A stretch of DNA of 64,000 nt. Origin: Desulfocapsa sp. GTDB lineage: Bacteria; Desulfobacterota; Desulfobulbia; Desulfobulbales; Desulfocapsaceae. This document shows positions 44,818-64,000 of this stretch, one piece after another. The translations under genes were made by a program, and so were the position numbers. Positions within the stretch are counted from its first letter, which is position 1; the number at the start of each line of letters is the position of its first letter. The notes under the pieces are model-generated. The model had not been told where the DNA came from, searched no databases, and was given only the letters and a program-made list of their open reading frames with translations. The stretch is from assembly GCA_022712895.1 (NCBI GenBank), contig JAFLJS010000028.1, positions 62,001-126,000 on the forward strand, in the 5' to 3' direction.

Positions 44818-45654
44818 CTATTTCAAAACGGTTCCACTTTCTTTGCTATCTGTAGAGTGCATCAGGGATGCCTTGTCAGCCAAATGTACCCTTGCCCATA
44901 TCTCAATCGGTTTTGGAGTGCCGTTACCGTGGCTGCCGCCATTGCCACCCATTTTGCTACCGCCTCTGCCGCCACCGCCACCACCTTTTCCACCACCACC
45001 ACCGCCACCTCTTCCACCGCCACCACCTGAGGAACCGCCCCCTGATGGCCGTGCTATTTCGCCGGACTCAAAGCCAACCCCAATGATCTTATTGTCTTTT
45101 GAGGCAGCAAGAAGAATTGGGATTTTCAGTTCGTAAACCAGATACCCCTCTTCGACTTGGATTCGGGTATATATTCCCATTTCTTCAGCCTTACTTGTCG
45201 GCATGGTTTGACGGGTTTCATCCGACCCATTGAGTATGGCCAGGCTATACTGACTGTCTTCCAACATGTCCTCAATACTGTTTCTTGATTTATGATCTGC
45301 CGTGCTTCCCCGCATCATTTTTTGCCTTGGCAGTGGAAACTGCAGCCCGAACTGTTCTTCTGTGTCACCGCTGTTGTTCAGCCACACAGTGAAACCGCCA
45401 CGAATAAACATCATTTTGCTTTTGTGGCTTCTGCTTAACAAGCGGATATAAAGAAAAGTGTCATCATTCATCAAAGAGACCCGAACTTTGGAATCATCAT
45501 CGAAATACTGAGGATTCTCAGGCCAGTCAGAATAATCGCTACCCTCCAGGGTAAGAGGTTCTGTCCATTGACTTTGCATGTCAACTTCATCACATCCACT
45601 GAGAAAAAAGCTTATCAAAATGATGATAAAAGTATTCCGTTTAGTTGATTTCAT
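44818..45654 (-). CDS. Lipoprotein with a glycine-rich segment
   Basis: 278 residues. The leader ends in a lipobox (SFFLSGC, lipidated Cys21), so it is membrane-anchored. The body (about 30-195) has a beta-rich pattern (KVRVSLMNDDTFLYIRLLSRS, FIRGGFTVWLNNSG, GYLVYELKIPILLA) reminiscent of carbohydrate-binding-like or 'sugar-binding' envelope domains; no family is recognised. Residues about 203-240 are almost pure Gly with Arg/Lys/Ser, followed by a short C-terminal strand (PIEIWARVHLAD). The opposite strand of the Gly tract gives a poly-Pro frame that is only a shadow. It is divergent from the CpxRA-like genes and is the nearest gene to the CpxR box. Confidence 0.8.
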   Translation of the reverse strand: MKSTKRNTFIIILISFFLSGCDEVDMQSQWTEPLTLEGSDYSDWPENPQYFDDDSKVRVSLMNDDTFLYIRLLSRSHKSKMMFIRGGFTVWLNNSGDTEEQFGLQFPLPRQKMMRGSTADHKSRNSIEDMLEDSQYSLAILNGSDETRQTMPTSKAEEMGIYTRIQVEEGYLVYELKIPILLAASKDNKIIGVGFESGEIARPSGGGSSGGGGGRGGGGGGGKGGGGGGRGGSKMGGNGGSHGNGTPKPIEIWARVHLADKASLMHSTDSKESGTVLK

Positions 45655-49952: not shown

Positions 49953-51185
49953 TTATGGTACCGCCAATATCGCACAGTTACAGAGATCATCACTCTCAAA
50001 AGCTGTCATATCACCCGCCTGTAAACCGGGAACGGGAAATACGCGAACAGTGAGTGGCTTGTTGAGACGGTAAGCCATGGTGCCGGTATCTCTCATAAGA
50101 GCAGCTATTTTTTCAATTGTTGTATTACCAGGGATTGGCACGGTATCCAGCCCGATACCACAAACCGCACTGTATGTCAGCAAAGAGTGTATCTCGAAAT
50201 TACCTTCAATGGTTCCCTGTGCAAGACCAGTATCTTCGGTGAGGGCCAACATAAGTCCAGAGAACCCGACAAGGTCCACATCCTTGATGGATTTGAATAC
50301 TTTGGTGAGCAGTGATGACGCCTCAACTGTGCCTGACGCACCAAAATACTCAACACCCAGCTGTTCATACACTTCAACCATACTTGAGCAATTTTTAGAC
50401 GGAGCGGCTGAGCTATCAAAACCAGAGAAGACAAAATCTTCATCCAGAGTTGTATCATCAATCAATGATTTTATATCCGAGATGAAATATTGCAGCGCAG
50501 AATGCATAATCTCAAAATAGGCTTTGTACAGGCGGTTATGATCCGAGATCTGCTTATCCTTGTTAAAGTCTTTCAGTACTCTGACAAGTAAATCTGGTGT
50601 CTCCAGGCCAATAACAAAACGTCTGCCCAGCTCTTTGCGATGATAGCTGGCAGGAAAATAGGGGATGAGCGGTTCGCAGTTGAAATTAACAGTAAAATTA
50701 AAGTTCCCTTCGCCCCTTGGTGTTATTTTACTGATTTGGGTAACTGCCTTTGCAGAGGATAGAATTAAATCGTTATCAAGTATGTCAAAAGCATCCACGC
50801 CAACATTAACGCAGACATTGCACAAATCACCAAACTCACTGATCAGCTCAGGCAGCATGGCAATTTCATCATGCGTTCTTGCCTCTCCGATTGCAAACCT
50901 GACCCGGAGCCCGGATGTATCAGAAGAGAGCAATAACTCACTAAGATACAAAAGATCTTTTCTTGCGTTTTCCAGAGTCTCTGTGTTGAGATATTCACCA
51001 AAAGGGTTTGTCACAATTCGTACAGATTGAACGGTATATGCATTTTTGGTGAGTTCTTTAGACAGATCAGCGCAAAACATTGAAGCTTTAGCTATTTCCT
51101 GCGCCCAGCTCTGCTTCTCTTTATCCAGAGATATAAAGGTTGTTATTGTTCTAACTTTACAAAGGTTTTTATCGGTATGACTCAT
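49953..51185 (-). CDS. DUF711 (UPF0210) family protein
   Basis: 410 residues, soluble. It begins with the family's KVRTITTFISLD segment and ends with GLDTVPIPGNTTIEKIAALMRDTGTMAYRLNKPLTVRVFPVPG, both hallmarks of DUF711 proteins, which have a TIM-barrel/pyruvate-formate-lyase-like fold according to structural work on the family. The GFSGLMLALTEDTGLAQG segment is also present. No enzymatic role is established. It is a single gene on the minus strand between two unrelated units. Confidence 0.88.
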   Translation of the reverse strand: MSHTDKNLCKVRTITTFISLDKEKQSWAQEIAKASMFCADLSKELTKNAYTVQSVRIVTNPFGEYLNTETLENARKDLLYLSELLLSSDTSGLRVRFAIGEARTHDEIAMLPELISEFGDLCNVCVNVGVDAFDILDNDLILSSAKAVTQISKITPRGEGNFNFTVNFNCEPLIPYFPASYHRKELGRRFVIGLETPDLLVRVLKDFNKDKQISDHNRLYKAYFEIMHSALQYFISDIKSLIDDTTLDEDFVFSGFDSSAAPSKNCSSMVEVYEQLGVEYFGASGTVEASSLLTKVFKSIKDVDLVGFSGLMLALTEDTGLAQGTIEGNFEIHSLLTYSAVCGIGLDTVPIPGNTTIEKIAALMRDTGTMAYRLNKPLTVRVFPVPGLQAGDMTAFESDDLCNCAILAVP

Positions 51186-51436
51186 TATAGAATTTCCACT
51201 ATCGTTATAAGTTTATTCTGCTTGAAAGGTGTTAACACGTTATTCTGATATATTTAGAGCTCAGGGCAAGTCAGTAGCGTTCAATCTGATCTTACTCAGC
51301 GGTGAGCATAATGGGATTCTTCACCCAAGCTGCCAGGCCAAGTAGAAAAGCATTGCCATTGATAACACGCCGTTCGACTCCCATACGTTAGCCCTCCATT
51401 CAAAATACTTAGTACCGTCTACCGACCCATTTCGTC

Positions 51437-52075
51437 CTAGCTCAAACTGCTTTTAAGCTGTAATAGACCAAATCCCATACCGATAAAAAGCCCTCCTGAA
51501 ATACGATGAAACCAGGACATTCCCCTCTGGTTGGCAAACAGTATTTTTGCCGACTTTGAAATATAGCCATAACTGAAGAGTGAAATAAAAGAAAGTGTCA
51601 TAAAAATTGTAGTCATGATGAAAAACTGAGGCAGGATAGAATTCTCCAAATCTAAAAACTGAGGAAATATAGCTGTGAAAAAAAGAATCGGTTTAGGGTT
51701 TGTTGCAGCAAGAAAAAAACCTTCATAAAAATAATCCAACTTGTTTTTAAAATTCGTTTTCCCTTTTTTGACTGGTAAATATTTTGTTGTTTTTGCGATT
51801 CGAAATTGCTTTATTCCTAAATATATCAAATACGAGGAACCAATAATTTTAACAACCATAAACAGTGTTGAAGAGGCTAACAACAATGCCCCCAAACCCA
51901 GTATTGAGATGCTTGACAAAAGAAAAAGACCCACAATGTTCCCCAAAGAGGAGATCGCAACAATTCGCAGGTCTGTGGTTATCGCGTTGGAGATAGCCAG
52001 GAAAATGGCTGGGCCGGGACTGATAATGTAGAAGAAGGAAACAACAGAATACAATAACAGTACATCGTAATTCAT
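51437..52075 (-). CDS. LysE/RhtB-family amino acid exporter
   Basis: 212 residues, about six hydrophobic segments. The family motif SPGPAIFLAISNAI lies in the first part (about 18-31), followed by LGNIVGLFLLSSISILGLGALL, the YLIYLGIKQFR segment and NPKPILFFTAIFPQFL. Inner-membrane exporter of amino acids or related metabolites; substrate unknown. It lies 62 bases beyond the end of the lipid cluster on the same strand and could be co-transcribed with it, but nothing else links them. Confidence 0.9.
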   Translation of the reverse strand: MNYDVLLLYSVVSFFYIISPGPAIFLAISNAITTDLRIVAISSLGNIVGLFLLSSISILGLGALLLASSTLFMVVKIIGSSYLIYLGIKQFRIAKTTKYLPVKKGKTNFKNKLDYFYEGFFLAATNPKPILFFTAIFPQFLDLENSILPQFFIMTTIFMTLSFISLFSYGYISKSAKILFANQRGMSWFHRISGGLFIGMGFGLLQLKSSLS

Positions 52076-52137: not shown

Positions 52138-52926
52138 TTATCTGTTCATAACGGGTTTCCCAATTAATAGTTCCAAAGGGACAACCTCACACTCATTTTT
52201 CTGCAGTGCACTGAAGAGCAGAATTAATTCGTTTTGCAAAATAGTAACACCCTCTTCTCCATGTGGAGGGAGATCATGGAGTAGGAGGATATCCCCTGAC
52301 GATATTTTTCGCATTATTCGTTTTGCCAGCCCAACTACTCTTTTATTGCCGCCATCAAAAGCCCGACAACTAAATGTCACAGTTTCCAGGTTTTCTGCTT
52401 GTAGAACGGATCTCAAAAGAGGGTTGGTGATTCCAACAGGAGGGCGAAAAAGTAAGGGACGAAAGCCAAAAGATCCCAGGAGTTGCTGACTTTTTTGTAT
52501 ATCTTTATGGAGGTTTTTCTGGCTTCGCAACATCAACAAACTATCATGTTTCCATGAATGATTTCCAATCGTGTGGCCTGCCGCTAGAATAGTACGGATA
52601 AGATCAGGACATCTCTGGGCCTTTTCTCCAATCACAAAAAATGTTGCTTTGAAATTGTAGCTTGCCAGCAACTTTAAAATTAGTGGGGTTGTCTCTGGAG
52701 ACGGGCCATCATCGAATGTGAGAGAAATTCCCTTACTACCTGCTGGACCTTTACTGAAAATGGGTAAAAAGAACCCCCATTGTGGCAGGAAAGGTGCGAT
52801 AAAACAGCAACAGAGAAAAAAGACAAGGGGAATCGTGGCAAACTTAGGAAAAAAAAGCAGTAACAGAAGAGCCATTCCAAAGGAGATATGAGCTACCTTT
52901 TCTGCCTGTGAACAGGGAGCCTTCAT
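52138..52926 (-). CDS. Membrane-anchored polysaccharide deacetylase (NodB-type)
   Basis: 262 residues: two adjacent hydrophobic segments (about 12-50) and then a NodB domain with SLTFDDGPSPETTPLIL (catalytic Asp pair near 73), the metal-binding GNHSWKHDSLL (His-x3-His), RPPVG and the late LLLHDLPPHGEEG motif. It removes N- or O-acetyl groups from a glycan or a glycolipid headgroup on the outer face of the inner membrane. Its ATG overlaps the stop of the MMPL-methyltransferase gene. Polysaccharide deacetylases also occur in flexirubin-type clusters. Last gene of the lipid/polyketide cluster. Confidence 0.92.
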   Translation of the reverse strand: MKAPCSQAEKVAHISFGMALLLLLFFPKFATIPLVFFLCCCFIAPFLPQWGFFLPIFSKGPAGSKGISLTFDDGPSPETTPLILKLLASYNFKATFFVIGEKAQRCPDLIRTILAAGHTIGNHSWKHDSLLMLRSQKNLHKDIQKSQQLLGSFGFRPLLFRPPVGITNPLLRSVLQAENLETVTFSCRAFDGGNKRVVGLAKRIMRKISSGDILLLHDLPPHGEEGVTILQNELILLFSALQKNECEVVPLELLIGKPVMNR

Positions 52927-55900
52927 GGTTTACCTGCGCGCCCGGTCAACCAGACGAGTTCTTCGTTTGTTCTTGTGACGCTGTTCATCTCCACCATAAA
53001 GCCAGCACCTTCAAGTAGCTCCGCCATATCTTCACTCTTTCTGTAATGAGCAGCTCCTCCGCCTCGTTTGGTTCGCATATCCTCAACTTTCCAGAACCAT
53101 GAAACCGCTCTTTTTTGAGGATAAATAACATAGCGGATCACCAGCAACCCGTCATCGGCCATAACTGCAAAACAGCTTGCAAAGAGGTTTTTGACGCTTT
53201 CATCATCAAGGTAGTGAAGCATATCGAGCAGAAGGACAAGATCAGCTGGTTCCTGGAGATCAGGCAACTCAGAAGCCATCTTCGTTATTAATTCAGCCCG
53301 ATCTCCCATTGCAAGCACTGCCACCCGAATGCGTTCTGCATCAGGGTCAAGGCCTACAAGTTTGGCATTTTTACAATACTCAAGACACCAGCATCCGGGA
53401 ACACCATATCCACAGCCGATATCGAGGATTGTATGTACTGTATCCCTTTTTGTTTCCAATATTTCAGATAAATCATGAAACATTGGATCTGATTTAAGTT
53501 TAAATCGTGCAAACATTCGGGGGTACGCTTCCAGCAGCCGATATCTGTTTCGTACCCGCTGCTCAATATCCTGTTGCTTTGCACTTCTCCTGACTGTTGT
53601 CGAAAAATAGCTGTGTAAAAGCGGAGGTAGAAGTAAAAAAGCACCAAGCAGCGAATACCCGATACCAAGGAGTGATGTTATACCAATGGATCGGAGCAAA
53701 CTATGTTCGGCAAAACAGAGCACACCAAAACCTATCAGGGTAGAAGTCCCTGCCATAAATACTGCCATACGTACAAGACCAAATGACGGATTTTGCGGAC
53801 TGCGATAACGCTGATGGGCACGCACAAAAAAGATTGAATAATCGATTCCCATCCCCAAAATCACAATGGAAAGCATAAGACCGGGAATATCCAGAGGGTG
53901 GCCGATAAGCTTCATGGTTCCCAAAGTGCAAATATACGAAAAAACTGGAGGCAGCAGGGTAATAAGGGTCAGCTGCCAACTTGCGTAGAAGAAGAGTAAA
54001 AAGATAACAATACTTACGGCAATGATGCCAAGCATTGTGGAAAAACTCTTAAAAAGAATAGCTGCCAGCTGGACGGAGAAGTTGGGGCTGTCAAATATTT
54101 TTCCTTCGCTGTGATACCTGCTAAAGAAATTGTCACTGTTATAGTTTTTTCCAGGACTGATATTTATAAATTCATGCAGTTGCCCATCGCTCTCTTGAAT
54201 TCCCAGTAAAGGATAAAATTTGGCGGGTAGCGTTTTTGCTTGTACAAAATAGTCTGGTGCCAGCGTTTTCAGAAAAGTAGAAAAGGCCTGATCGCTAAAG
54301 CCAAGAGCTGTACTCTTTGCCAGCAACTGTTCTTGAAACACGTTCACCTTTTCAGGAGTCCAGAACTCTTTCCAGGATGACAAATTCTCCTGTGCCCGTT
54401 TTTCTCCAGGGAAAAGCATGGAGGCGACAAAAACCTTTTCCAGAGTTTCTGCTGCGACATCTTTGGCCACTTTTTGTAACAACTCATCATTTTGCAGCTG
54501 TAAATCTTCTACGGATTCGGCCGACAGCATCAGCACCACACGGTTGCTGATATTTCCCCAAACCGATGTAAAGAGCGAATCAGCCTCCATGGTTTCCTGA
54601 CTCACGGTATTCATACTCTCAAGATTTACCTGAAACTCAGGCCTTGCATAGAATACCAAAACCAATGCCAACAATGCAGCCCCAAAAAAGCCAACACGCC
54701 CAGTGCTATAAAAGCCATCGACAAAAGTCTGCAAAGGAAGCCTTCGTTTGCCGGAAGCTTTCAAAGCGGGAGTCAGGTAGGGGAAGACAAAATGCACAAA
54801 AAGGAAGGAAAACAATACGCCCATGGCCGTAAATTGTCCCAACTGAACAAAGACAGGAAAACCGCTAAAACTGAGGGTCAAAAAAGCACCACAGGTGGTA
54901 AGCACTGCAAGAAGCCCAATGGAGCGCACCTCATGGGAGGCTTCTTTGCCTCTGGTGTCTTGCCTTCGATCGAGGAAGAGCAGATAAGCAATTCCATGAT
55001 CAACGGTGATGGAGATAATCGCCCCGCCAAAACCAAGTACCATGATCGATATGGAGGGATGTAACAGTGAAAAGACAAGTAAAGAAAGTGCCGTTCCAAA
55101 AAGTGCAGGTAACAGTGACAGCAGACCAATCAACGGCCTTGGGAAGGCAATAAACAATAAAAATCCGATGCCAAGCATTGACAGGAGGAGGGCGAAATTC
55201 ACATCATGGCGAATAATCTGCTCGTTATCAAGGGCTGCCCGGTAAGCTCCAACGGGGGTAAGCGTCACCCCTATTCCCGCCGCTGTAAATTGCTCGTTGA
55301 GCATTTTTTCCACTGCTTGAATCAGGTTTGCAAGCTGTTTGGCTGAAGCAGTGTCGGTACCTGACACATTTGGGCGTGCTGTGACGAGCAGATGTTTGCG
55401 ATCTGGAGAGAGAAGGAATCCATTATGAATCTGGGCATCAGCAAGGGGTGCCAGCATGGCCATTTTGGCCATTACCGGTTCCATAAACCCCAGAGGATCG
55501 CTGGCGATAAACTGCCCCTGCCCTATTCCCTCAAGGCTGCTCAGTTTTTGTACAGATTCCTGCAAACGTGTTGTTATAAAATCCGCTTGCAGTCTGGGAG
55601 TTATCTCAGCCTCAAGCTCTGCTTCGCTTAGCAAAAGCGGCAAGCTTTCCATCACATGCAAAGCGAGTTCCGGGATCAGCGTTGCAATCTTGGCGTTTCC
55701 CACCTCACGAAAGAGACCACTTGCGATGAATTCTTTTTCTATGAACTGGCCACATGCAACAAGACTATCCAGATCATCAATCGTTAAAGCCACATCCACT
55801 GCGATCTGGTCATGGATGGGATGATTGGCAAAAATTTCAAGTGCGTCACTGACCACAACCGAATTTGCAGGTAGGGAGCGAACAATATCCGTATCCATAT

Positions 55901-55982
55901 CAAGACGCAGCACTGCAGTAACACTGCTGGCGATGATAAACAGAAGGACAACTAGAAAGAGGCGAATGTTAAAGGACTTCAT
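52923..55982 (-). CDS. MMPL-type exporter fused to a methyltransferase
   Basis: 1019 residues. Residues 1 to about 790 are an MMPL/RND-type exporter in two halves, each a leading helix, a large periplasmic domain and a block of five or six helices (first block with GFGGAIISITVDHGIAYLLFL, second with LMLSIVILGMGIDYSIFFV). Exporters of this type move lipids or aryl polyenes across the inner membrane. The C-terminal part (about 800-1019) is a class I methyltransferase with motif I ILDIGCGYGVPG near 852, VGLDPDAERI and LVLLLDMLHYLDDE. The fusion implies that methylation and export of one product are coupled. Four-base overlaps with genes on both sides. Confidence 0.9.
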   Translation of the reverse strand: MKSFNIRLFLVVLLFIIASSVTAVLRLDMDTDIVRSLPANSVVVSDALEIFANHPIHDQIAVDVALTIDDLDSLVACGQFIEKEFIASGLFREVGNAKIATLIPELALHVMESLPLLLSEAELEAEITPRLQADFITTRLQESVQKLSSLEGIGQGQFIASDPLGFMEPVMAKMAMLAPLADAQIHNGFLLSPDRKHLLVTARPNVSGTDTASAKQLANLIQAVEKMLNEQFTAAGIGVTLTPVGAYRAALDNEQIIRHDVNFALLLSMLGIGFLLFIAFPRPLIGLLSLLPALFGTALSLLVFSLLHPSISIMVLGFGGAIISITVDHGIAYLLFLDRRQDTRGKEASHEVRSIGLLAVLTTCGAFLTLSFSGFPVFVQLGQFTAMGVLFSFLFVHFVFPYLTPALKASGKRRLPLQTFVDGFYSTGRVGFFGAALLALVLVFYARPEFQVNLESMNTVSQETMEADSLFTSVWGNISNRVVLMLSAESVEDLQLQNDELLQKVAKDVAAETLEKVFVASMLFPGEKRAQENLSSWKEFWTPEKVNVFQEQLLAKSTALGFSDQAFSTFLKTLAPDYFVQAKTLPAKFYPLLGIQESDGQLHEFINISPGKNYNSDNFFSRYHSEGKIFDSPNFSVQLAAILFKSFSTMLGIIAVSIVIFLLFFYASWQLTLITLLPPVFSYICTLGTMKLIGHPLDIPGLMLSIVILGMGIDYSIFFVRAHQRYRSPQNPSFGLVRMAVFMAGTSTLIGFGVLCFAEHSLLRSIGITSLLGIGYSLLGAFLLLPPLLHSYFSTTVRRSAKQQDIEQRVRNRYRLLEAYPRMFARFKLKSDPMFHDLSEILETKRDTVHTILDIGCGYGVPGCWCLEYCKNAKLVGLDPDAERIRVAVLAMGDRAELITKMASELPDLQEPADLVLLLDMLHYLDDESVKNLFASCFAVMADDGLLVIRYVIYPQKRAVSWFWKVEDMRTKRGGGAAHYRKSEDMAELLEGAGFMVEMNSVTRTNEELVWLTGRAGKP

Positions 55983-56692
55983 CGTTGTATAATTAACAGA
56001 AACGCTGCCATCAAGACAAGCAAATGGGCAATAATAATGGGAAGTTTATAGCGCTGTAGCAGTTCATTGTTGCGCTGAAGAAATTGGAGACCACCAAAAA
56101 ATCGCCGAATCTTATCCAGAAAAATCGTTTTATTGTCACTGATAGACATACTCTGAAAAGCGATCATGGGAACGGGGGCAAAAGAATTGATGCAGCGCTT
56201 TTTTAAAAAACCATCATAGGCCACCCCCTGCCACTGCTCCTCTATTATTTTTTTGGCGAAGGGTCGATTCAAAGCATACCCATGCGTTAGACAACGATAG
56301 TCTATTTTGGTCAGATACTTTGAAACTGTTTTTCTACTGCGGCTACTAATGGCACCAAGGAAAAATGCATCCCAGCTTTGCAGTTGCTGTAACTGCTTTA
56401 TTGCCTCTGTACTTCGCTCTTCCTTAAAGTGTGCCACGGTAATATCATCTTCAAAGATCAATATATGCTTACCGCCCTCTTCCACGCCACGGGTTAAACA
56501 GTACAGATGTGAATCAAAGATCCCTTCTTCTGGATTGCTGGGATGTTTTTGCACAAGAACAAATTCCACCCGTTGCAGAATCCCAAGTTCGTCAAATACC
56601 CGTTTTGCGCTTTCTTGCCTGTCTAAACGGCTATCCACCGATATACAAAACATTTTATCAAAGAACTGTTGCGGATCAAAGATGGCATTCAT
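55979..56692 (-). CDS. GT25-family glycosyltransferase, membrane-anchored
   Basis: 237 residues from the preferred ATG; a longer frame to 56782 has no leader or family similarity. It resembles the LPS-biosynthesis/GT25 family: FDKMFCISVDSRLDRQESAKRVFDELGI at the N-terminus, LIFEDDI (acidic catalytic motif) near residue 90 and HGYALNRPFAKKI. A C-terminal transmembrane helix (LPIIIAHLLVLMAAFLLII) anchors it. It may glycosylate the product of the cluster. It follows a 358-base gap that carries an opposite-strand gene. Confidence 0.85.
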   Translation of the reverse strand: MNAIFDPQQFFDKMFCISVDSRLDRQESAKRVFDELGILQRVEFVLVQKHPSNPEEGIFDSHLYCLTRGVEEGGKHILIFEDDITVAHFKEERSTEAIKQLQQLQSWDAFFLGAISSRSRKTVSKYLTKIDYRCLTHGYALNRPFAKKIIEEQWQGVAYDGFLKKRCINSFAPVPMIAFQSMSISDNKTIFLDKIRRFFGGLQFLQRNNELLQRYKLPIIIAHLLVLMAAFLLIIQR

Positions 56693-56718
56693 AGAAATTC
56701 TAAGGTAAAGAATATGGT

Positions 56719-57093
56719 ATGAAAGATATGTACCGAAAAGCTCTGATGAAAATTGCCAACACTGCTTTTGTCCAGTCAGCAATTAAGGAACAGGCGGATC
56801 TATCAGCGTTTAAAGCGAAACCGTCCTTTGCTGTGATCACGGGTGTTGTGTTAATCATCATTTCCTCTCTTCTTGGCTGGCCAGCCGTTGCTGCACTTGG
56901 TGTTACTGCCATACAACTTGAAGAACCCCTTATTGCTGTTATCGGCGGCCCGCTGGTGTATGGCTTTTCCCATCTTGTTTTTCTTCTTGGCATGTACTTT
57001 TCAGGCGCCGAATATTCTTTAATTTTTGCCCGCTGGCTGGTTCGTGCCGTTATGGAAAAGCTATTATTCTGGGCAGATCTGCCGCAGGTTTAA
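56719..57093 (+). CDS. Small two-helix membrane protein, antisense to the cluster
   Basis: 124 residues on the plus strand between minus-strand genes, filling the only large gap of the cluster. Two hydrophobic segments (about 37-62, PSFAVITGVVLIIISSLLGWPAVAALG; and 70-92, PLIAVIGGPLVYGFSHLVFLLGMY) with a soluble helical N-terminus (RKALMKIANTAFVQSAIKEQADLSAF). Its end overlaps the 3' end of the dehydratase gene by 44 bases. The composition looks genuinely coding and resembles small conserved membrane proteins of Desulfobacterota as I recall them. AAGGT lies upstream, at a long distance. Function unknown. Confidence 0.7.
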   Translation: MKDMYRKALMKIANTAFVQSAIKEQADLSAFKAKPSFAVITGVVLIIISSLLGWPAVAALGVTAIQLEEPLIAVIGGPLVYGFSHLVFLLGMYFSGAEYSLIFARWLVRAVMEKLLFWADLPQV

Positions 57094-57889
57094 TCAAGCC
57101 TCCAGTCACATCCCGCATCCGTAAGCCTTTTACTGTTTCGCAAGGTTCTCCACTCATTTCAAAAATAGAGAGATCAAAAAGAAGCTCCTTTTCTGTTTGC
57201 GACACAAGCTGTACATTGCTTGAATATTCTGTCCCTGCAACCGTTGGTTTGTGGATATAACGCTTAGCAATAGCCACAGGAAAAGGAACAAAATCTGCCA
57301 CACACTGCCCCAAAACGCAGGCTGCATGCATGGCACCATCAAGTGGAAATGGAGAACCGACGACTGCTTCCATTTTCTGTTTCTGTGCCATCCGGGGTGC
57401 CTGCAATCTTACAATAGCTGTTGCATTCCTCATATGTAACATCCCAATTATACTCCTATAACTTGGGCCAAAAGGAACAAGCTCACGGTAAATCCTTGCC
57501 GCATCTAACTGCAGATCGCCATCTTCAAATTTAAGAAATGGCAGCGGAGACACATCTTGCTCTTCAAGCTTAAAATGTAACGCAGCGTGTTCTTTTATCC
57601 TGCTAATTTTTTTAAACTGAATCTTGCTGAGCAGTTTGCAGAAAAAACCATCATCTGTTTCTTCATACTCCACCAGTGCTGAAATCTCAGCTGCACCTTC
57701 CGGGATTTCCAAAAGTTTAGAGAAACTGGCTTGCGCCATATACTGCACAGACAGAGCAGGTACTATTCTGGTTGCAGTTTCAGCCAGTAGCAACATGGTT
57801 TCAACAGCTGGAAAGATGGTCTTCCCGTTAAAACTGTGATCAACAAACCAGGGAAGAACAGGGATTGAGACAGGGATACGGTTTGCCAT
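57050..57889 (-). CDS. Stand-alone PKS-type dehydratase
   Basis: 279 residues with the double-hotdog fold signature of polyketide-synthase dehydratase domains. First hotdog: DHSFNGKTIFPAVE, the HxxxGxxxxP motif (His18, Gly22, Pro27). Second hotdog: FPLDGAMHAA, the catalytic Asp (183) with His187 in the DxxxQ/H motif. It would dehydrate a 3-hydroxyacyl-ACP intermediate. PKS dehydratases are normally embedded in large synthases; a free-standing one beside separate ketosynthases and ACP points to an iterative type II-like system. It abuts the thioesterase gene (one base shared). Confidence 0.87.
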   Translation of the reverse strand: MANRIPVSIPVLPWFVDHSFNGKTIFPAVETMLLLAETATRIVPALSVQYMAQASFSKLLEIPEGAAEISALVEYEETDDGFFCKLLSKIQFKKISRIKEHAALHFKLEEQDVSPLPFLKFEDGDLQLDAARIYRELVPFGPSYRSIIGMLHMRNATAIVRLQAPRMAQKQKMEAVVGSPFPLDGAMHAACVLGQCVADFVPFPVAIAKRYIHKPTVAGTEYSSNVQLVSQTEKELLFDLSIFEMSGEPCETVKGLRMRDVTGGLIKPAADLPRIIAFP

Positions 57890-58371
57890 TATGACGCCGG
57901 AAACTGTTCCCAGAGTTTAACGGTCCTGGCATCGACTTCAACGGGAATCCCCTTCTCGTTTACGGCGCAGTGTCTGGTAAAACCGGTACAGATAATCTCA
58001 TTATCTTCTGCCCGCGTAATCACATAATCAAACTGCAGCTTCACAAGCTCCAGGGTGGAGGGTCTGGTGTGGACATGCATCAGATCGTCATAAAAAAGCG
58101 GAGTATAATAGTTCAGTTCTATTTTAATAATGGGATAGACGTAACCACTTGCCTCAATCTGCTTGTAAGGGTACTTGTAATCCCGCATAAGCTCTGCCCG
58201 GCCAAACTCAAAGTAGCGCAGATAATTTGCGTGATACACCACTTGCGAACGATCGGTATCCACATAGAGGGTTCGCATCTGTGAACGATGCCAGGTAAGC
58301 CCGCTATTGAGATCTTTTACATGTGAAGGATGATCTGCTAAAATTTCAGGAATAAATGGTTTTGGTCGCAT
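57889..58371 (-). CDS. 4-hydroxybenzoyl-CoA-type thioesterase
   Basis: 160 residues, single hotdog of the YbgC/FadM type: MRTLYVDTDRSQVVYHANYLRYFEFGRAELMRD contains the family's Asp in YHANYLRYFE and the leading Tyr-x-Asp-x-D. It hydrolyses acyl thioesters, here probably the ACP-bound product or misprimed intermediates. Thioesterases of this kind (ApeK-like) occur in aryl-polyene clusters. It lies six bases after the first ketosynthase gene. Confidence 0.88.
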   Translation of the reverse strand: MRPKPFIPEILADHPSHVKDLNSGLTWHRSQMRTLYVDTDRSQVVYHANYLRYFEFGRAELMRDYKYPYKQIEASGYVYPIIKIELNYYTPLFYDDLMHVHTRPSTLELVKLQFDYVITRAEDNEIICTGFTRHCAVNEKGIPVEVDARTVKLWEQFPAS

Positions 58372-58377
58372 ATTTTG

Positions 58378-59646
58378 TTAGTTGCATCCTCTGAAAACTA
58401 TACAGCAATTTGTGCCGCCAAAGCCAAAGGAATTGGATAGTACATGTTCATAACTATGTTTACGGCTGGTATTTGGCACCACATCAATATCTGCAAAAGC
58501 GGGGTCGGGGATATGGTTCACAGTGGGTAAAACAACTCCCTGTGACATCGCTTCTATGGAAAGAGCCGCTTCAATTGCAGCTGAAGCACCAAGACTGTGG
58601 CCAACCTGCGATTTGTTGGCAGATACCGGAATATTGCTGATATGTTCAGCAAACACTTCCCGTAGACATTCCACCTCTGTGGCATCCCCTGTTGGAGTTG
58701 ATGTTCCATGGGCATTAATGGAACCGATATCCTGAGCGCTAATTTCCGCATCTGTTAAAGAGTCGCGAATGGCACGGACAATGGTATCTTTATTGGGACG
58801 GGTAAAGTGTTTGGCATCTGATGTCATGCCAATGCCTACAACTTCAGCTTTTCTTGTCAGCCCGCACTGTTTTATTTTCTCTTCAGCAGCAAGAAGCAAC
58901 ACCCCCGCACCTTCCGCCAGAACAAACCCTTTGCGATCAAGACTGAACGGTCGTGATGCCTGTGTGGGATCAACATATGCCCGGTCTTTCTCACCAACCT
59001 TGATTGTGGCCAGCATATTGGAAAAACCCTGGATTATTTCAGGTACCAGACAGCTCTCCACCCCACCAACCAGTGCAAAGTCGCAATCTCCATCACGTAT
59101 CATTCTTGCGCCCATGGCGATTGCGTGATTAGCGGAAGCACATGCACCCTGTGGGGAAAAAACAGGGCCGGTAAAACCCAGTTCCATGCCGGCCTTACCG
59201 GCTGGCAGATTGGCACAAACATTGGGCAAGAGATAGGGGCTCACTTTGAAGGGACCACGATTTACATAATTATCCATGGCAATGCGGTAAGAATCGACGC
59301 CATTCAAAGCAGAGCCAATCAGACAGGCAGTTTTGGGGCCAGTTTCCTTATCCATGGTAAGCCCGGCATCGGCCAAAGCCTGACGACACATCTCCATGGT
59401 CAAAAAGACATAATCTGCATTCCAGATTGACGCTTCTTTAGGAGTCACATAGGGAAACTGGGAAGGGTCCCAGTTTGGGATTTCGCCCACCACATTACTG
59501 CGGCTCTCGGTTTCACATTTTGTTACCCGGCTAAACCCTGCTTTGCCCTGTAGTGCTGCCTGCCAAGTGTTTGCAAAACTATTGCCAAGCGCTGTGGCTG
59601 TGGCGTATCCGCTGACAAAAACTTTTCTATTAAGTGGAGCTTTCAT
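58378..59646 (-). CDS. Beta-ketoacyl-ACP synthase (KAS II/FabF-like), copy A
   Basis: 422-residue thiolase-fold condensing enzyme. The Cys-His-His triad is intact: Cys169 in PQGACASANHA, His313 in NAHGTSTPTGD and His350 in NKSQVGHSLGAS. It elongates acyl-ACP with malonyl-ACP. Paralogous to copy B directly upstream. Both have a catalytic Cys, so neither is a chain-length factor, which would have Gln at this position. The sequence is diverged from housekeeping FabF (long N-terminal part with NWDPSQFPYVTPKE), which fits a specialised cluster. Confidence 0.92.
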   Translation of the reverse strand: MKAPLNRKVFVSGYATATALGNSFANTWQAALQGKAGFSRVTKCETESRSNVVGEIPNWDPSQFPYVTPKEASIWNADYVFLTMEMCRQALADAGLTMDKETGPKTACLIGSALNGVDSYRIAMDNYVNRGPFKVSPYLLPNVCANLPAGKAGMELGFTGPVFSPQGACASANHAIAMGARMIRDGDCDFALVGGVESCLVPEIIQGFSNMLATIKVGEKDRAYVDPTQASRPFSLDRKGFVLAEGAGVLLLAAEEKIKQCGLTRKAEVVGIGMTSDAKHFTRPNKDTIVRAIRDSLTDAEISAQDIGSINAHGTSTPTGDATEVECLREVFAEHISNIPVSANKSQVGHSLGASAAIEAALSIEAMSQGVVLPTVNHIPDPAFADIDVVPNTSRKHSYEHVLSNSFGFGGTNCCIVFRGCN

Positions 59647-59654
59647 TTTCTTGT

Positions 59655-60905
59655 CTAATGTACCTTTTTAAAGACAGCACAGCTATTGCATCCGCCAAAA
59701 CCAAAAGAGTTTTTCAAAACATACTCCTGATCCAGTTTGCGTTTTGTATTTGCGACACAATCGATCTCTATTTCCGGATCAGGCTGATAGTTAATTGTGG
59801 GAGCTAAAATCCCGTCACGCATGCCTTGAAAAGAAAAAATTGATTCAATCACAGATGAGGCGCCCATTGCATGACCAATCAAAGATTTATTAGCTGAAAC
59901 CGGGGGTAGTTTACTGCCAAAAACGACCTGCAAAGCATCAAATTCAACTTTATCCCCCACTTTTGTCGACGCCGCATGGGCATTTACAGCTGCGATATCT
60001 GCTGGAGTGACGTTTGCATCAACCATGGCATCGACCATACAACGTTTTATGGTCTCAAAATAGGGGGCTACAAAATGGTGGGCATCAGAAGTCATTCCCC
60101 AACCAGCAAGTTCTGTGTCGTAAGAGAGGCCATGACTTCTGGCGAACTCGGGAGTTGCCAGAATCACTGCGCCCGCACCCTCTGAGATGACAAAACCACG
60201 TCTGTTCTTTGAGAATGGTCTGCTGGCAAGTTGCGGAGCTTCTTCCAGGCCCTCTTTGGGATTATAGACAGCGTTCATTGTGTGAAAGCCAGCAACAATT
60301 GGCTCTACCAATGCAAAATCGACAGCGCCGCAAATTGCGACATCAGCACGTCCTTGAGCCAGAAACATGGCACCCATAATCATAGATGTAAGACCCGTTG
60401 CACAAGCCGTGATGGGAGCAACAATGGGCCCCTGCGCTCCTGTCTGGATGGCAATCTTACCACCAACCATGTTGATACAGGAGTTAGGATTTGCATAGGG
60501 GAGAGGGAGCTTATTCTCGGTCTGCATCCGTCTGTCTGAGGACAAAACCGCATCTAGTCCGCCTATGGCTGAGCTATAGGTTACAGCAACTCTTGGGGCA
60601 AGTTCTTTTGTGATCTCGACGCCACTGCGTTCAAGAGCTCTGGCCACAGTAAGCATACTGTATCTAAAAACAGGAGATGTCCAGCTGGCCAGGTGTCTGG
60701 CTGTCAGGAAGGGATAGTCGAGATCGTCAATATTGGGTGTTTGGCCAGCGATTCGAACAGGAAAATCATCATCAATGGGGAAACGTGTCAGGGGAGCAAT
60801 ACCGCTCTTCCCGGCAAGCGCTTGTTGCCACCCTGCTTCCATATCACTGCCGAGGGCCGTAACGGCATCATAGCCCAGGATTACTGGATTGGAAGCGGAT
60901 TTCAC
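59655..60905 (-). CDS. Beta-ketoacyl-ACP synthase (KAS II/FabF-like), copy B
   Basis: 416-residue condensing enzyme with the complete triad Cys168 (PITACATGLTS), His310 (VNAHAASTKVGD) and His345 (NKSLIGHAMGAS). It is the partner of copy A, eight bases upstream of it. The usual Gly after NAH is replaced by Ala (NAHAAS). The two may act at different chain lengths or as a heterodimer. Downstream of the second radical SAM gene, with six bases between. Confidence 0.92.
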   Translation of the reverse strand: MKSASNPVILGYDAVTALGSDMEAGWQQALAGKSGIAPLTRFPIDDDFPVRIAGQTPNIDDLDYPFLTARHLASWTSPVFRYSMLTVARALERSGVEITKELAPRVAVTYSSAIGGLDAVLSSDRRMQTENKLPLPYANPNSCINMVGGKIAIQTGAQGPIVAPITACATGLTSMIMGAMFLAQGRADVAICGAVDFALVEPIVAGFHTMNAVYNPKEGLEEAPQLASRPFSKNRRGFVISEGAGAVILATPEFARSHGLSYDTELAGWGMTSDAHHFVAPYFETIKRCMVDAMVDANVTPADIAAVNAHAASTKVGDKVEFDALQVVFGSKLPPVSANKSLIGHAMGASSVIESIFSFQGMRDGILAPTINYQPDPEIEIDCVANTKRKLDQEYVLKNSFGFGGCNSCAVFKKVH

Positions 60906-60911
60906 TTTCTG

Positions 60912-61940
60912 TTACCAGGGTATAAACTGATACAGTTTTGCGAACATCTCATACACTTCAATCCAGTTCCGTAACGATTCTGGAGTGTCAATATGAGCAC
61001 GTTTATTCACCATAACCCAGCTCATATGAGCGGCGCCATCTTTACACGTTGAACAGTCACGAGTCTCAGAGGTGCAGCAACGATGCACAGTCTCCAAATC
61101 TGACGCCCAGCGGACGAAATTAGTCAGTCGTTTTGGCTGCGGTTCGCGGTTATCCCGCATAATCGTAACCGATGGACATTCATTCCAGCCAAATCGTCGA
61201 CCCAACATCACCCCGGTGGTAATAATTTCATGGTAATATTTTGAAGAGACAACGGTATCTGGATAGCGATCAAGCATAGCATCCATCTCTGCCCGAATGG
61301 CGATCAACTCCTCAGGCATCCAGGAAAAACCGCTCACATCCTCGTCATTGGAAAGCAACTGCATATGCACCTTTAATCCAATATCTCTGATTTTGCGGAT
61401 AATTTTTTCTGTCTTTCCCAGTTGTTTCGGAGTTATGGTGTAGAGGTAATAGGCGTGAGGATCCCCTTCATAATTAGCACTCGTTATCTTAAACGTATCC
61501 TGGCCACGAAGAGCAATTTCGTCTTCTGCATCGCCCCACAGAGACAAGCCAACCATCATATCCGGAAAACGATCTCGAGGAATTTTAATAAGACCATTGG
61601 TGGCACAGAAAGTGGGCAGACGCTTATAAAAGGCCTCAATGCGATCCATACAGAGCGTTGGTTCACCACCTATCAAGATGGCGAGATTCACACCACGATC
61701 CATCTCTTTTTCCACAAAACCATGCCATTTCTCCACATCCTTTTCTTCAGCAGCACGTTCATGCTCACCGGATGAGAAGAAAAAACACCCTTTGCAACGC
61801 AGGTTGCAGCGATCTGTTACATCATAGATCGAACTACGGATATTGAGTCTGGAGATTTTTTTATATCGCTCGTACCATTCATTGTCGAGCAAGGAACTTA
61901 CTGTTTTCATAGACGTATATTTTTTTTGCGTTTTTAGCAC
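60912..61940 (-). CDS. Radical SAM enzyme with C-terminal cysteine motif, copy B
   Basis: 342 residues. The radical SAM motif CNLRCKGC (Cys45, Cys49, Cys52) is followed by ILIGGEPTL, and a C-terminal cysteine group CCTSETRDCSTCKDGAAH may hold an auxiliary cluster, as in SPASM-type enzymes. Clearly paralogous to the next protein (62983-61934). GTG 61940 overlaps the upstream stop codon, which favours coupling; ATG 61910 is an alternative start. The substrate is unknown; within a lipid cluster a C-C bond-forming or carbon-skeleton reaction is an attractive hypothesis only. Confidence 0.85.
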   Translation of the reverse strand: MLKTQKKYTSMKTVSSLLDNEWYERYKKISRLNIRSSIYDVTDRCNLRCKGCFFFSSGEHERAAEEKDVEKWHGFVEKEMDRGVNLAILIGGEPTLCMDRIEAFYKRLPTFCATNGLIKIPRDRFPDMMVGLSLWGDAEDEIALRGQDTFKITSANYEGDPHAYYLYTITPKQLGKTEKIIRKIRDIGLKVHMQLLSNDEDVSGFSWMPEELIAIRAEMDAMLDRYPDTVVSSKYYHEIITTGVMLGRRFGWNECPSVTIMRDNREPQPKRLTNFVRWASDLETVHRCCTSETRDCSTCKDGAAHMSWVMVNKRAHIDTPESLRNWIEVYEMFAKLYQFIPW

Positions 61941-62983
61941 TGCTCTGGTGGTTCCACCATTTCACTGCAAAGATTTTTGCCCTTCTCGTACCCTTTCACC
62001 CACACTGCAAGATACGTATCCACATAGTCCAGCCATGCGGAAAAATGCCGGGGAGTAGTTGCGTGACGATACATTCTGGCTGTAACCACCGCACTTCCGG
62101 CAGCATAATGGCGGCAATCATCACAATCAGTATCCGGCACACAACATGCCGCCGCTCTATCCCACTGCAAATCAGTCCGGTATTGGCGAAAAGATCTACC
62201 GAGACCAATGTCAGTGGATGGATTCATACGCGGATAAGAACAGGAGAAAAGATCATGCAAACCCTGCTCATGAGTATGAGCCATGATATTATAGGGAGAG
62301 TAAATAACAGTCTCCGGATAATCTTGCAAAAGTTCTGTCATTACGAGACGGGTACGAGCCAATGTTTCAGGAGTATGCTTCAGATGCCCATCATAGCCAA
62401 CAGGGGCGGAGAACATATTAAAGGTGATCTGCTGATTATTGGCAGCCAGTTTTTTAGTCACTTCCCTGGCCTCGTCAATATTTACCGGAGTAAAGGTATA
62501 GACCCAGATTGCACGTGTGTCGCCATGGTAATTCTCCATCTGGCGCTTTAGCATACCCTTTGCCTTTCTGATTTCCAGACTGGTTTCATCATTTCCCCAT
62601 ACGGAAAGATGGATGCGATAATCAATTTCTCTGGGCAGTACTTTTATGCCGTTACTGGCAATACAGCCAAGAGGAATTTCGTCGTAGCAGGTTTTACACA
62701 AATCGGGGACAAAGGATGGTTCGGCACCGGCAAGCACAACGAAGGTGATGCCACGCTCCTTTTCTGCACGCATATGCTGCTGCCAGTCGGAAACATTTAA
62801 ATTTTCTTCGAAAAGATGTTTATCGCCCTGAAAATAATAGCAGCCCTCACAACGAATATTACAACGATTGGACATGTCATAGGTGGACTCACGCAGAAAG
62901 AAGTACTTACGTACCTTTTCGAAACGTTCACGGATGGCAGGAACAGCAATAATATCGGAGAACTTGTACTCTTGTTCACTCAT
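61934..62983 (-). CDS. Radical SAM enzyme with C-terminal cysteine motif, copy A
   Basis: 349 residues with CNIRCEGC (Cys41, Cys45, Cys48), the SAM-contact loop LAGAEPSF and a C-terminal Cys group ACCVPDTDCDDCRHYAAGSA. It shares the layout of copy B (STYDMSNRCNIRC against SIYDVTDRCNLRC; NYHGD against NYEGD), so the two arose by duplication. Many positions differ, including GAEP instead of GGEP in the substrate/SAM loop. It follows the ACP gene by 14 bases. Confidence 0.85.
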   Translation of the reverse strand: MSEQEYKFSDIIAVPAIRERFEKVRKYFFLRESTYDMSNRCNIRCEGCYYFQGDKHLFEENLNVSDWQQHMRAEKERGITFVVLAGAEPSFVPDLCKTCYDEIPLGCIASNGIKVLPREIDYRIHLSVWGNDETSLEIRKAKGMLKRQMENYHGDTRAIWVYTFTPVNIDEAREVTKKLAANNQQITFNMFSAPVGYDGHLKHTPETLARTRLVMTELLQDYPETVIYSPYNIMAHTHEQGLHDLFSCSYPRMNPSTDIGLGRSFRQYRTDLQWDRAAACCVPDTDCDDCRHYAAGSAVVTARMYRHATTPRHFSAWLDYVDTYLAVWVKGYEKGKNLCSEMVEPPEQC

Positions 62984-62997
62984 TGGAAAGTGTTCCG

Positions 62998-63264
62998 TTA
63001 CTCTTTTTCGGCAAGTTTAGTATCAATATAAGCTGCAATAATGGCCACAGTGGTGAGCTTGGGATAATCGTCTTCATCAATACGGACTCCGTACTCATCA
63101 CGTATCACCAGGGCTATGGTGGCAAGATCCATGGAATCGATACCGACCTCATCAACAAGATCAAGATCACCATCAAAGGTTTCCGGGGTAACATCTTCCA
63201 GCTTTAGTTCATTTATGATGATTCCAGCAATACGGGTGACTGTTTCGCTATTAGCACTTGCCAT
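62998..63264 (-). CDS. Acyl carrier protein
   Basis: 88 residues, acidic, four-helix ACP pattern. The phosphopantetheine Ser is Ser44 in VGIDSMDLATIALVIRDEYG. It carries the growing chain for the two ketosynthases and dehydratases of the cluster. Helix II (DSMDLATIALVIRDEYGVRI) is typical. Six bases after the hotdog gene and 14 before the radical SAM gene. Confidence 0.93.
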   Translation of the reverse strand: MASANSETVTRIAGIIINELKLEDVTPETFDGDLDLVDEVGIDSMDLATIALVIRDEYGVRIDEDDYPKLTTVAIIAAYIDTKLAEKE

Positions 63265-63270
63265 GTATCT

Positions 63271-63624
63271 CTACTGCTCCTTTCTGGGGGCCAGAACAAG
63301 CCTGCCTGAACAGACCTGCTGATCGTTATGTTGTATGGAAAAAATATAATTACTTTCTTGCTTACCAGCGGCGGCATGAATATCAAGGACATCCCCCGGC
63401 CGGATTAACTTTTTGAATTTCACTCGTGCCAGAGTCTGTAAGACCAATTTTTGTTGTACAACCTGTTCCACACACTCTGTTACCATGTGTAGTTGTGCTA
63501 TACCAGGCAGTATGGGATCTCCAGGAAAATGACCATCAAACCATGGCGACAACGCATCGGTGCTGACTTTTGCAACCACTGCACCTTCGCTGTCACGCTT
63601 TGCTGTTATGATTGTATACCACAT
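63271..63624 (-). CDS. ApeI/FabZ-like hotdog dehydratase
   Basis: 117-residue single-hotdog protein with the FabZ/FabA-type motif GHFPGDPILPGIAQLHMV (His32 and the following). At the position of the FabZ catalytic Glu (14 residues after the His) there is His, as in ApeI-like hotdogs where this site is not Glu. So it resembles the aryl-polyene dehydratase ApeI more than housekeeping FabZ. It would act on 3-hydroxyacyl-ACP or similar. Located directly upstream of the ACP gene. Confidence 0.85.
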   Translation of the reverse strand: MWYTIITAKRDSEGAVVAKVSTDALSPWFDGHFPGDPILPGIAQLHMVTECVEQVVQQKLVLQTLARVKFKKLIRPGDVLDIHAAAGKQESNYIFSIQHNDQQVCSGRLVLAPRKEQ

Positions 63625-63699
63625 CGCTCAACTCTAACTAAATAACCGATTTGTTGTAACAGGTAACACAAAAAAATTCAAACATTCTGCACTCATTTG

Positions 63700-64000
63700 T
63701 CATCTGATTAAAAATTCCCACAGAGGGCCGGTAAACCCACGACCATGCATTCTGCTCACGATATTTGCGGCAGTCTCTCCACCAGAACCTACAACCCAAT
63801 TAATTCGGTCTGTGGCGCGCTCCTTGACCAGACGTTCAATATTGCCTGGACTAATGGCATCGCTTTCGTAGTAAAAAGGCTCCAGCAAGTTTGTATCTTC
63901 GCTTATTTTCCCTTCCTCTATTGCAATATCATAAAGTTTAGTATGGGGATATATGCGCATACCCGTGAAAAAGAAGTGTACTGTCTGCTGCAGTTCTTCC
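63700..64000 (-). CDS. B12-binding-type radical SAM enzyme (C-terminal part)
   Basis: The frame is open to the window edge, so only the last 99 residues are visible; it starts beyond 64000. The visible part reads EELQQTVHFFFTGMRIYPHT, then KLYDIAIEEGKI, and further on ISPGNIERLVKERA, the C-terminal pattern of B12-binding-domain radical SAM proteins of the BchE/P-methylase type. An apparent ATG at 63960 is internal. Its direction and the 75-base gap before the hotdog gene make it the likely upstream member of the cluster, so the cluster continues past the window. Confidence 0.75.
   Translation of the reverse strand, partial: EELQQTVHFFFTGMRIYPHTKLYDIAIEEGKISEDTNLLEPFYYESDAISPGNIERLVKERATDRINWVVGSGGETAANIVSRMHGRGFTGPLWEFLIR

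Follow-up and report, generated by a model that had tools for sequence, protein, structure and literature searches.

Introduction

The gene cluster reported here is best compared with the aryl-polyene (APE) loci, the candidate ladderane loci of anammox bacteria and the flexirubin/dialkylresorcinol (dar) loci. In the APE pathway of E. coli the predicted starter is 4-hydroxybenzoate, an early ubiquinone intermediate (PMC8253772, in the part available to us). Celluxanthene, an anaerobic arylpolyene, comes from a type I polyketide synthase (PKS), and the word "radical" is absent from the accessible main text of its description (PMC12144888). Our subject is a run of genes at 52138-64000 of a 64,000-nucleotide stretch of DNA ("the window", bases 62001-126000 of contig JAFLJS010000028.1, here C8) from the genome of Desulfocapsa sp. 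(GCA_022712895.1; 3.68 Mb, 75 contigs). With little more than even confidence we read it as one half of an oxygen-independent APE-type outer-membrane lipid pathway, to which a module of two ketosynthases (KS) and two radical S-adenosylmethionine (SAM) enzymes has been added.

The anammox loci carry a phenylacetyl-CoA-ligase-like gene, and the set that Rattray et al. described for Desulfotalea includes phytoene-dehydrogenase-like genes (Rattray 2009, PMC2649909; Javidpour 2016, PMC4790861; accessible parts of both). A study of the Cariaco Basin obtained "ladderane" calls in Desulfobacterota as well as in further phyla and, in the portion at hand, left their function open (PMC9902471). No report of the module was found among the papers listed on radical SAM enzymes with aryl polyenes, flexirubin/dialkylresorcinol and ladderanes in Desulfobacterota, subscription journals being mostly uncovered, and the available parts of PMC12758564 and PMC10553843 hold nothing on the present cluster.

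Results

All twelve packed minus-strand genes given for 52138-64000 in a preliminary description, made from the letters of the window, are open there (ORF list of the window), and its gene families hold as well. The cluster consists of the following genes:

63700-64000, minus strand: 3' end of a B12-binding radical SAM protein (446 aa when whole, C8:125700-127040; NCBIfam TIGR04072, rSAM_ladder_B12, 394.8 bits, cut-off 360)
63271-63624, minus strand: FabZ/ApeI-like hotdog dehydratase, 117 aa (PF07977, 6.1e-8; PF22818 ApeI-like, 31.8 bits, cut-off 28.5)
62998-63264, minus strand: ACP2, an acyl carrier protein (ACP), 88 aa (PF00550)
61934-62983, minus strand: rSAM1, core radical SAM protein, SPASM/twitch-like, 349 aa (five invariant C-terminal cysteines; predicted model)
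60912-61910, minus strand: rSAM2, core radical SAM protein, 332 aa (alignment, predicted model; listed ORF from 61940)
59655-60905, minus strand: KS1, FabF-like ketosynthase, 416 aa (Pfam scan)
58378-59646, minus strand: KS2, FabF-like ketosynthase, 422 aa (Pfam scan)
57889-58371, minus strand: 4HBT/YbgC-type thioesterase (TE), 160 aa (TIGR00051, 90.1 bits, cut-off 68.7)
57050-57889, minus strand: free-standing PS-DH-type dehydratase (DH), 279 aa (PF14765)
56719-57093, plus strand: small, conserved membrane-like protein, 124 aa (34 intact orthologues collected)
55979-56692, minus strand: GT25-like glycosyltransferase, about 237 aa (PF01755, 4e-7; listed ORF from 56782)
52923-55982, minus strand: fusion of an MMPL transporter and a methyltransferase domain, 1019 aa (Pfam/NCBIfam; 26 near-full-length orthologues collected)
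52138-52926, minus strand: NodB-type polysaccharide deacetylase, 262 aa (PF01522, 2.5e-31)
C8:127037-129172, beyond the window: fusion of a ketosynthase and a chain length factor (KS-CLF) with two ketosynthase domains, 711 aa
C8:129336-129605, beyond the window: ACP1, second ACP of the run

Extending the sequence, as had been proposed, shows that the run continues for some 3.6 kb beyond 64000, where the remainder of the B12-radical SAM gene, KS-CLF and ACP1 follow. Pfam scans of the window and extension proteins found no ketoreductase (KR) in the C8 run.

The order rSAM1-rSAM2-KS1-KS2-TE-DH, all on one strand, forms a core that is conserved far beyond the host. Relatives were gathered from genome searches and from one scan of named contigs, which gave 315 stretches with an rSAM2 relative (tblastn, E<=1e-3), the best 80 of which were kept; 117 loci were compared, and after removal of seven (duplicates or without rSAM2) 110 distinct loci remained. 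Among these the core order is exact in 65 of the 68 testable loci, so the genes are conserved together more often than chance would give, and rSAM1 lies at most 4 kb upstream of rSAM2 in 82 of 83 loci with enough sequence. The exceptions to the order are L144, where KS2 follows about 8 kb farther on and TE and DH fall outside the available stretch, L098, with rSAM2 only, and L103, with KS1 between both radical SAM genes. Upstream of the core ACP2 is found in 69/76 loci and the hotdog dehydratase in 64/72. Less constant neighbours are the TIGR04072 B12-radical SAM gene (39/55), KS-CLF (29/55), the small membrane protein (27/45), the deacetylase (22/42) and the MMPL-methyltransferase (19/45).

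Among 395 genomes sampled across the host phylum, strong rSAM2 matches (>600 bits) occur in 28, the host counted, and one further match is weak (125 bits). The titles of the best 80 records include Desulfobacterales, Desulfobulbaceae, Syntrophaceae, seven metagenome-assembled genomes (MAGs) of Spirochaetes and one of Planctomycetota. TIGR04072 is associated with the core and not confined to its holders: it is present at E<=1e-97 in 96 of the 395 genomes (over the cut-off in 84), namely in 23/28 core holders versus 73/367 others (p=2.8e-11, kinship not corrected for), and each of the ten searched core-bearing genomes behind named records has one member over the cut-off.

The catalytic residues are intact (counts include the window sequence itself). 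Cys-His-Lys-His is kept in 100/100 KS1 and 86/86 KS2 sequences and in 41/41 N-terminal halves of the KS-CLF fusion, the ACP serine in 85/85 (ACP2) and 51/51 (the other ACP), and His and Asp of the PS-DH dehydratase in 51/51, with its motif Pro in 48/51. His32 of the ApeI-like hotdog protein (48/48), CxxxCxxC of the B12-radical SAM protein (56/56) and D72, D73, H123 and H127 of the deacetylase (18/18) are likewise invariant. As KS1 and KS2 both have the four catalytic residues, unlike a KS-CLF pair, each is probably a condensing enzyme.

Of the three radical SAM enzymes first noted in the window, the B12 member is clear, whereas rSAM1 and rSAM2 are weak by profile and owe their assignment to motif and fold. 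rSAM2 scores 28.9 bits with the Pfam radical SAM family, just below the cut-off of 29.5, rSAM1 has no Pfam match, and neither is named over cut-off by Pfam or NCBIfam. CxxxCxxC is nevertheless present in 62/62 aligned sequences for both (window included), and both have five invariant C-terminal cysteines with near-identical spacing, the two proteins being about 29% identical to each other. The 61 aligned rSAM2 orthologues, drawn mostly from the best scan matches, are 69-94% identical to the protein of the window. Predicted models match radical SAM structures: for rSAM1 (pLDDT 87.6) BlsE with Z 17.1 (root-mean-square deviation, rmsd, 3.4; 256 residues aligned) and SkfB with Z 16.7 (4.1; 240), for rSAM2 (pLDDT 81.9) SkfB with Z 15.8 (3.6; 237) and BlsE with Z 15.4 (4.2; 258). 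With Z values of about 13-17 and rmsd of about 3-6 Å, SkfB, BlsE, anSME, SuiB and viperin-like enzymes are the structures nearest to both; several members of this group carry auxiliary clusters. Profiles of the two proteins against PDB sequences gave nothing but general radical SAM matches and, at E 0.06, two deacetylase chains. The C-terminal cysteines and the fold together suggest SPASM/twitch-like proteins with a putative auxiliary cluster. Because the models resemble enzymes several of which have such clusters, the chemistry would most likely be two-electron oxidation or carbon-carbon bond formation on a chain bound to ACP, which the two enzymes would dehydrogenate or close into a ring without oxygen.

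A second host locus, at 94.8-117.5 kb of contig C25, holds further aryl-polyene-type genes. At about 115.1-117.5 kb lie an ApeP-like dehydratase (51% identity with a protein from a relative that is over the cut-off for PF22817), a KR (74% identical to its counterpart in relatives) and a LolA (48%); in relatives the same three genes stand divergent from ACP1-KS-CLF, with PF22817 over cut-off in L042. Beyond them C25 carries a B12-radical SAM gene and an AMP ligase, then two acyltransferases, a GT2 and an ACP-KS pair, and also a SPASM-type radical SAM gene, another B12-radical SAM gene (three radical SAM enzymes in total), DarH, a DarG-family gene and DarB. The host thus has KS-CLF, an ApeR-type KS, a KR and both ApeP- and ApeI-like dehydratases, the ApeI-like protein of the window being over its cut-off, and with MMPL and LolA it has exporter parts.

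In relatives the two halves are linked. We read stretches of 28-60 kb around the core in ten hand-picked genomes with long contigs. Near the core, ApeP, KR and a B12-radical SAM gene (B12b) were present in 9/10, the AMP ligase and KS-CLF in 8/10, MMPL in 7/10, and LolA, the ApeR-type KS, an acyltransferase, the SPASM radical SAM gene and TIGR04072 in 6/10 each; a second B12-radical SAM gene (B12a) was seen in 3/10 and DarB/DarH in 2/10. In a genome of the same genus (G009) the whole set apart from the Dar genes fits into some 42 kb, other genes being interspersed. In the cultured Desulfogranum japonicum DSM 18378 the set occupies about 96.7-130.3 kb of one contig, a DarB homologue included; because nearly the whole set stands there in one stretch, its product can be sought directly.

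For comparison the ape locus of E. coli CFT073 was read as annotated, with ten of its proteins scanned and two more examined by NCBIfam; gene roles follow Table 1 of PMC8253772, as accessible to us. In a tree of 38 ketosynthases the N half of KS-CLF falls together with E. coli ApeO (88/91); the C half, like E. coli ApeC, matches PF13723. The KS on C25, a contig other than that of the window cluster, groups with E. coli ApeR (100/100). KS1 and KS2 form sister clades (100/99), a pair of their own.

Some gene boundaries can be refined. The start of rSAM2 is probably 61910 rather than 61940, since its orthologues have about 332 aa, and GT25 probably starts near 56692; its four measured orthologues have 237-258 aa. 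The hydrophobic protein encoded at 56719-57093 on the plus strand, which was missing from the preliminary description, overlaps the end of the dehydratase gene; its changes fall mostly at third codon positions in 5/5 orthologue comparisons, and no Pfam family matched it. The LysE and DUF711 genes at 49953-52075 were rejected as members, as was the solute-binding-like gene that begins on the opposite strand beyond ACP1, since none has a counterpart beside the core in the compared loci. Elsewhere in the window, the ORF at 44818-45654 (minus strand) has a long glycine-rich stretch. On another host contig, C11 (L053:4669-12777), a ketosynthase domain is part of a protein of 2702 aa.

Discussion

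Gene content, intact catalytic residues, conserved order, linkage of the halves in relatives and ketosynthase kinship support an aryl-polyene frame for the cluster, with the other half on C25. What we infer are the reactions, the product class and, the host being taken for a relative of sulfur-metabolising Desulfobacterota, its anaerobic life. ACP1 and the fused ApeO-ApeC-like KS-CLF, together with the KR and the ApeP-/ApeI-like dehydratases (partly on C25), would extend a starter into a polyene. KS1-KS2, working on ACP2 with the PS-DH dehydratase, the thioesterase and rSAM1/rSAM2, may build a second acyl unit and oxidise it without O2, by dehydrogenation or ring closure. Most likely this unit would serve as starter or head group, in place of the 4-hydroxybenzoate of E. 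coli. The TIGR04072 B12-radical SAM protein might methylate or rearrange the chain, acyltransferases would attach it to a lipid, GT25 and the deacetylase could modify it further, and export of the product would fall to the MMPL protein and LolA-like partners. Sulfate reducers use menaquinone. Since the E. coli starter comes from the ubiquinone path, a home-made starter would be an attractive role for the core.

A bolder form of this idea, which we regard as rather unlikely, is that the module is a type II polyketide line of a new kind, in which the radical SAM pair would act on ACP-bound chains and make an aromatic or carbocyclic starter out of malonate, with no need for oxygen, chorismate or tyrosine. 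If true, it would mean an anaerobic route to aryl-polyene-type pigments across Desulfobacterota and Spirochaetota.

Several observations weigh against an APE-type pathway. The host ApeP-like protein is without any Pfam match, as is the protein in the ApeN position (the third partner, in the LolB/DUF3261 place); the AMP-binding ligase on C25, a candidate for ApeH-type starter activation, fits no specific family over cut-off; and no aromatic-starter gene was identified. The ApeO branch, on which the grouping of the N half of KS-CLF depends, is long, and KS1/KS2 stand apart both from the APE ketosynthases and from the anammox enzymes in the tree. In G395, one of the ten long-contig genomes, the stretches read contain no ApeP, KR, ligase, KS-CLF or MMPL, so the core may work alone. 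Finally, PlsY-like genes and phosphopantetheinyl transferase (PPTase) domains occur near the core, in 31/116 and 30/116 loci respectively (four duplicate pairs left in). They agree with ACPs that have to be activated separately and with a product ending on glycerol phosphate, but could also leave room for an ordinary phospholipid acyl chain.

These last points, and the separate clade of KS1/KS2, are what speaks for the strongest alternative: the core would by itself make an unusual acyl chain for membrane phospholipids (e.g. unsaturated, branched or cyclic), loaded onto glycerol phosphate by a PlsY-type enzyme, with the APE genes as neighbours that make a separate product. In closely read loci the PlsY-like gene or PPTase domain directly follows the dehydratase or is fused to it. 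Both relatives scanned have a dehydratase-PPTase fusion (L118:14231-15922 and L115:16582-18084) with a PlsY-type acyltransferase gene downstream. The presence of ApeP, KR and B12b near the core in nine of the ten long-contig genomes, however, argues against a separate product. E. coli APE is itself thought to use a lysophospholipid acyltransferase (PMC8253772, available part), and the only match to the cluster PlsY in the host is 38% identical and lies on contig C56. We hold this alternative to be unlikely.

Less probable still, and in our judgement quite doubtful, is a flexirubin-type pigment, in which a polyene acid would be esterified to a DarB-made dialkylresorcinol and the core would supply alkyl chains or aromatise the resorcinol without O2. 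The three Dar proteins of C25 score well above their cut-offs (DarB 592.8 bits, cut-off 450; DarG family 166.3, cut-off 70; DarH 490.9, cut-off 300), and L185 has DarB, DarG-like and DarH genes after the core and GT25. Against this, DarB and DarH are found in just 2/10 long-contig neighbourhoods and DarB in 7/111 loci and in L210, which extends L179, so the resorcinol genes are not a fixed neighbour of the core; no DarA was identified, no genome-wide search for it having been made. In the host, presumably an anaerobe, the Dar genes lie at C25:94.8-97.4 kb (L051:795-3356) and adjoin ABC-transporter-like genes.

A ladderane-type or anaerobic polyunsaturated fatty acid (PUFA) route, of the sort suggested for Kuenenia and Desulfotalea, is very improbable: the B12-radical SAM protein passes TIGR04072, and anammox loci share the classes KS, ACP, B12-radical SAM, MMPL, methyltransferase and deacetylase with the cluster, but the core itself is, by the sequence comparisons that follow, not the ladderane set. 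In a sample of 392 Planctomycetota genomes, those with one or two matches to HZS-alpha on an ORF of 809-844 aa, which we take to be the size of HzsA, were presumed to be anammox bacteria (at least 24 among the matches listed); for G539 the label is backed by a kuste3603-3608-like gene order (L220). rSAM2 at E<=1e-15 was found in 0 of the 24 presumed anammox genomes listed. A full rSAM2 occurs only in the Planctomycetota MAG noted above, and a distant single homologue (31-34% identity) in four other genomes (L205-L208), whose stretches, as far as read, show none of the remaining core genes; none of the five genomes is among the 24. We compared nine anammox stretches, one of them with the kuste3603-3608 order and another like kuste3335-3352 (gene order from the accessible part of PMC4790861). 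At E<=1e-3 they contain no match to rSAM1, TE, DH or GT25, nor to the small membrane protein, while rSAM2 has a single match there, of 35 bits across 82 residues. KS2 is matched only at the general ketosynthase level, with 36% identity in the best full-length match in four presumed anammox genomes and 39% in one partial match. The B12-radical SAM protein, sole cluster member of a family named after ladderane clusters, is 35-36% identical in the anammox loci L219 and L223, yet TIGR04072 is over its cut-off in just 3/8 anammox genomes.

Among the scanned C8 and C25 proteins there is no desaturase-like amine oxidoreductase. The host does have a pair of them on another contig: C29 (L052:4993-10641) encodes an ACP, a FabF-like KS, two amine-oxidoreductases, a FabG and a FabA/FabZ-like protein. 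This gene make-up, likened through the description in the paper, resembles the Desulfotalea psychrophila set that the preliminary description had mentioned; it is separate from the cluster. Of the two comparisons drawn there, the aryl-polyene one stands and the ladderane one fails for the core.

How the APE-type reading fares against described systems can be put as follows. With apeA-R of E. coli CFT073 the host shares KS-CLF (ApeO/ApeC), an ApeR-type KS, ApeI and ApeP, a ketoreductase, ACPs, a 4HBT thioesterase, a ligase, acyltransferases, a GT2, a LolA-like protein and an MMPL/RND transporter. Unlike E. coli, it has KS and CLF in one protein, its genes over two loci, the extra KS1/KS2 pair, the PS-DH dehydratase, GT25, the deacetylase, the MMPL-methyltransferase fusion and radical SAM enzymes (the core pair, TIGR04072 and three others on C25); the 18 intact annotated genes of the E. 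coli stretch include none with a radical SAM name. With flexirubin/dar loci the second host locus has DarB, the DarG family and DarH in common; the dar genes are inconstant beside the core, DarA was not seen, and the hosts of the core are presumed anaerobic. The anammox candidate loci (kuste3335-3352 and kuste3603-3608) share the TIGR04072 B12-radical SAM gene and general fatty-acid-synthase classes; they differ in that the rSAM1/rSAM2/KS1/KS2/TE/DH core was not found there and an amine-oxidoreductase is present. Such clusters can receive the label "ladderane" from automatic annotation, and our data offer a different reading, in which the radical SAM/KS core belongs to an APE-type pathway. An iterative fatty-acid-synthase/PKS-like lipid cluster with radical SAM tailoring, which resembles APE clusters yet is none, was also the view of the preliminary description. 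The cluster would accordingly be a variant of the APE-type clusters, and the KS1/KS2-rSAM1/rSAM2 module its new, unexplained part.

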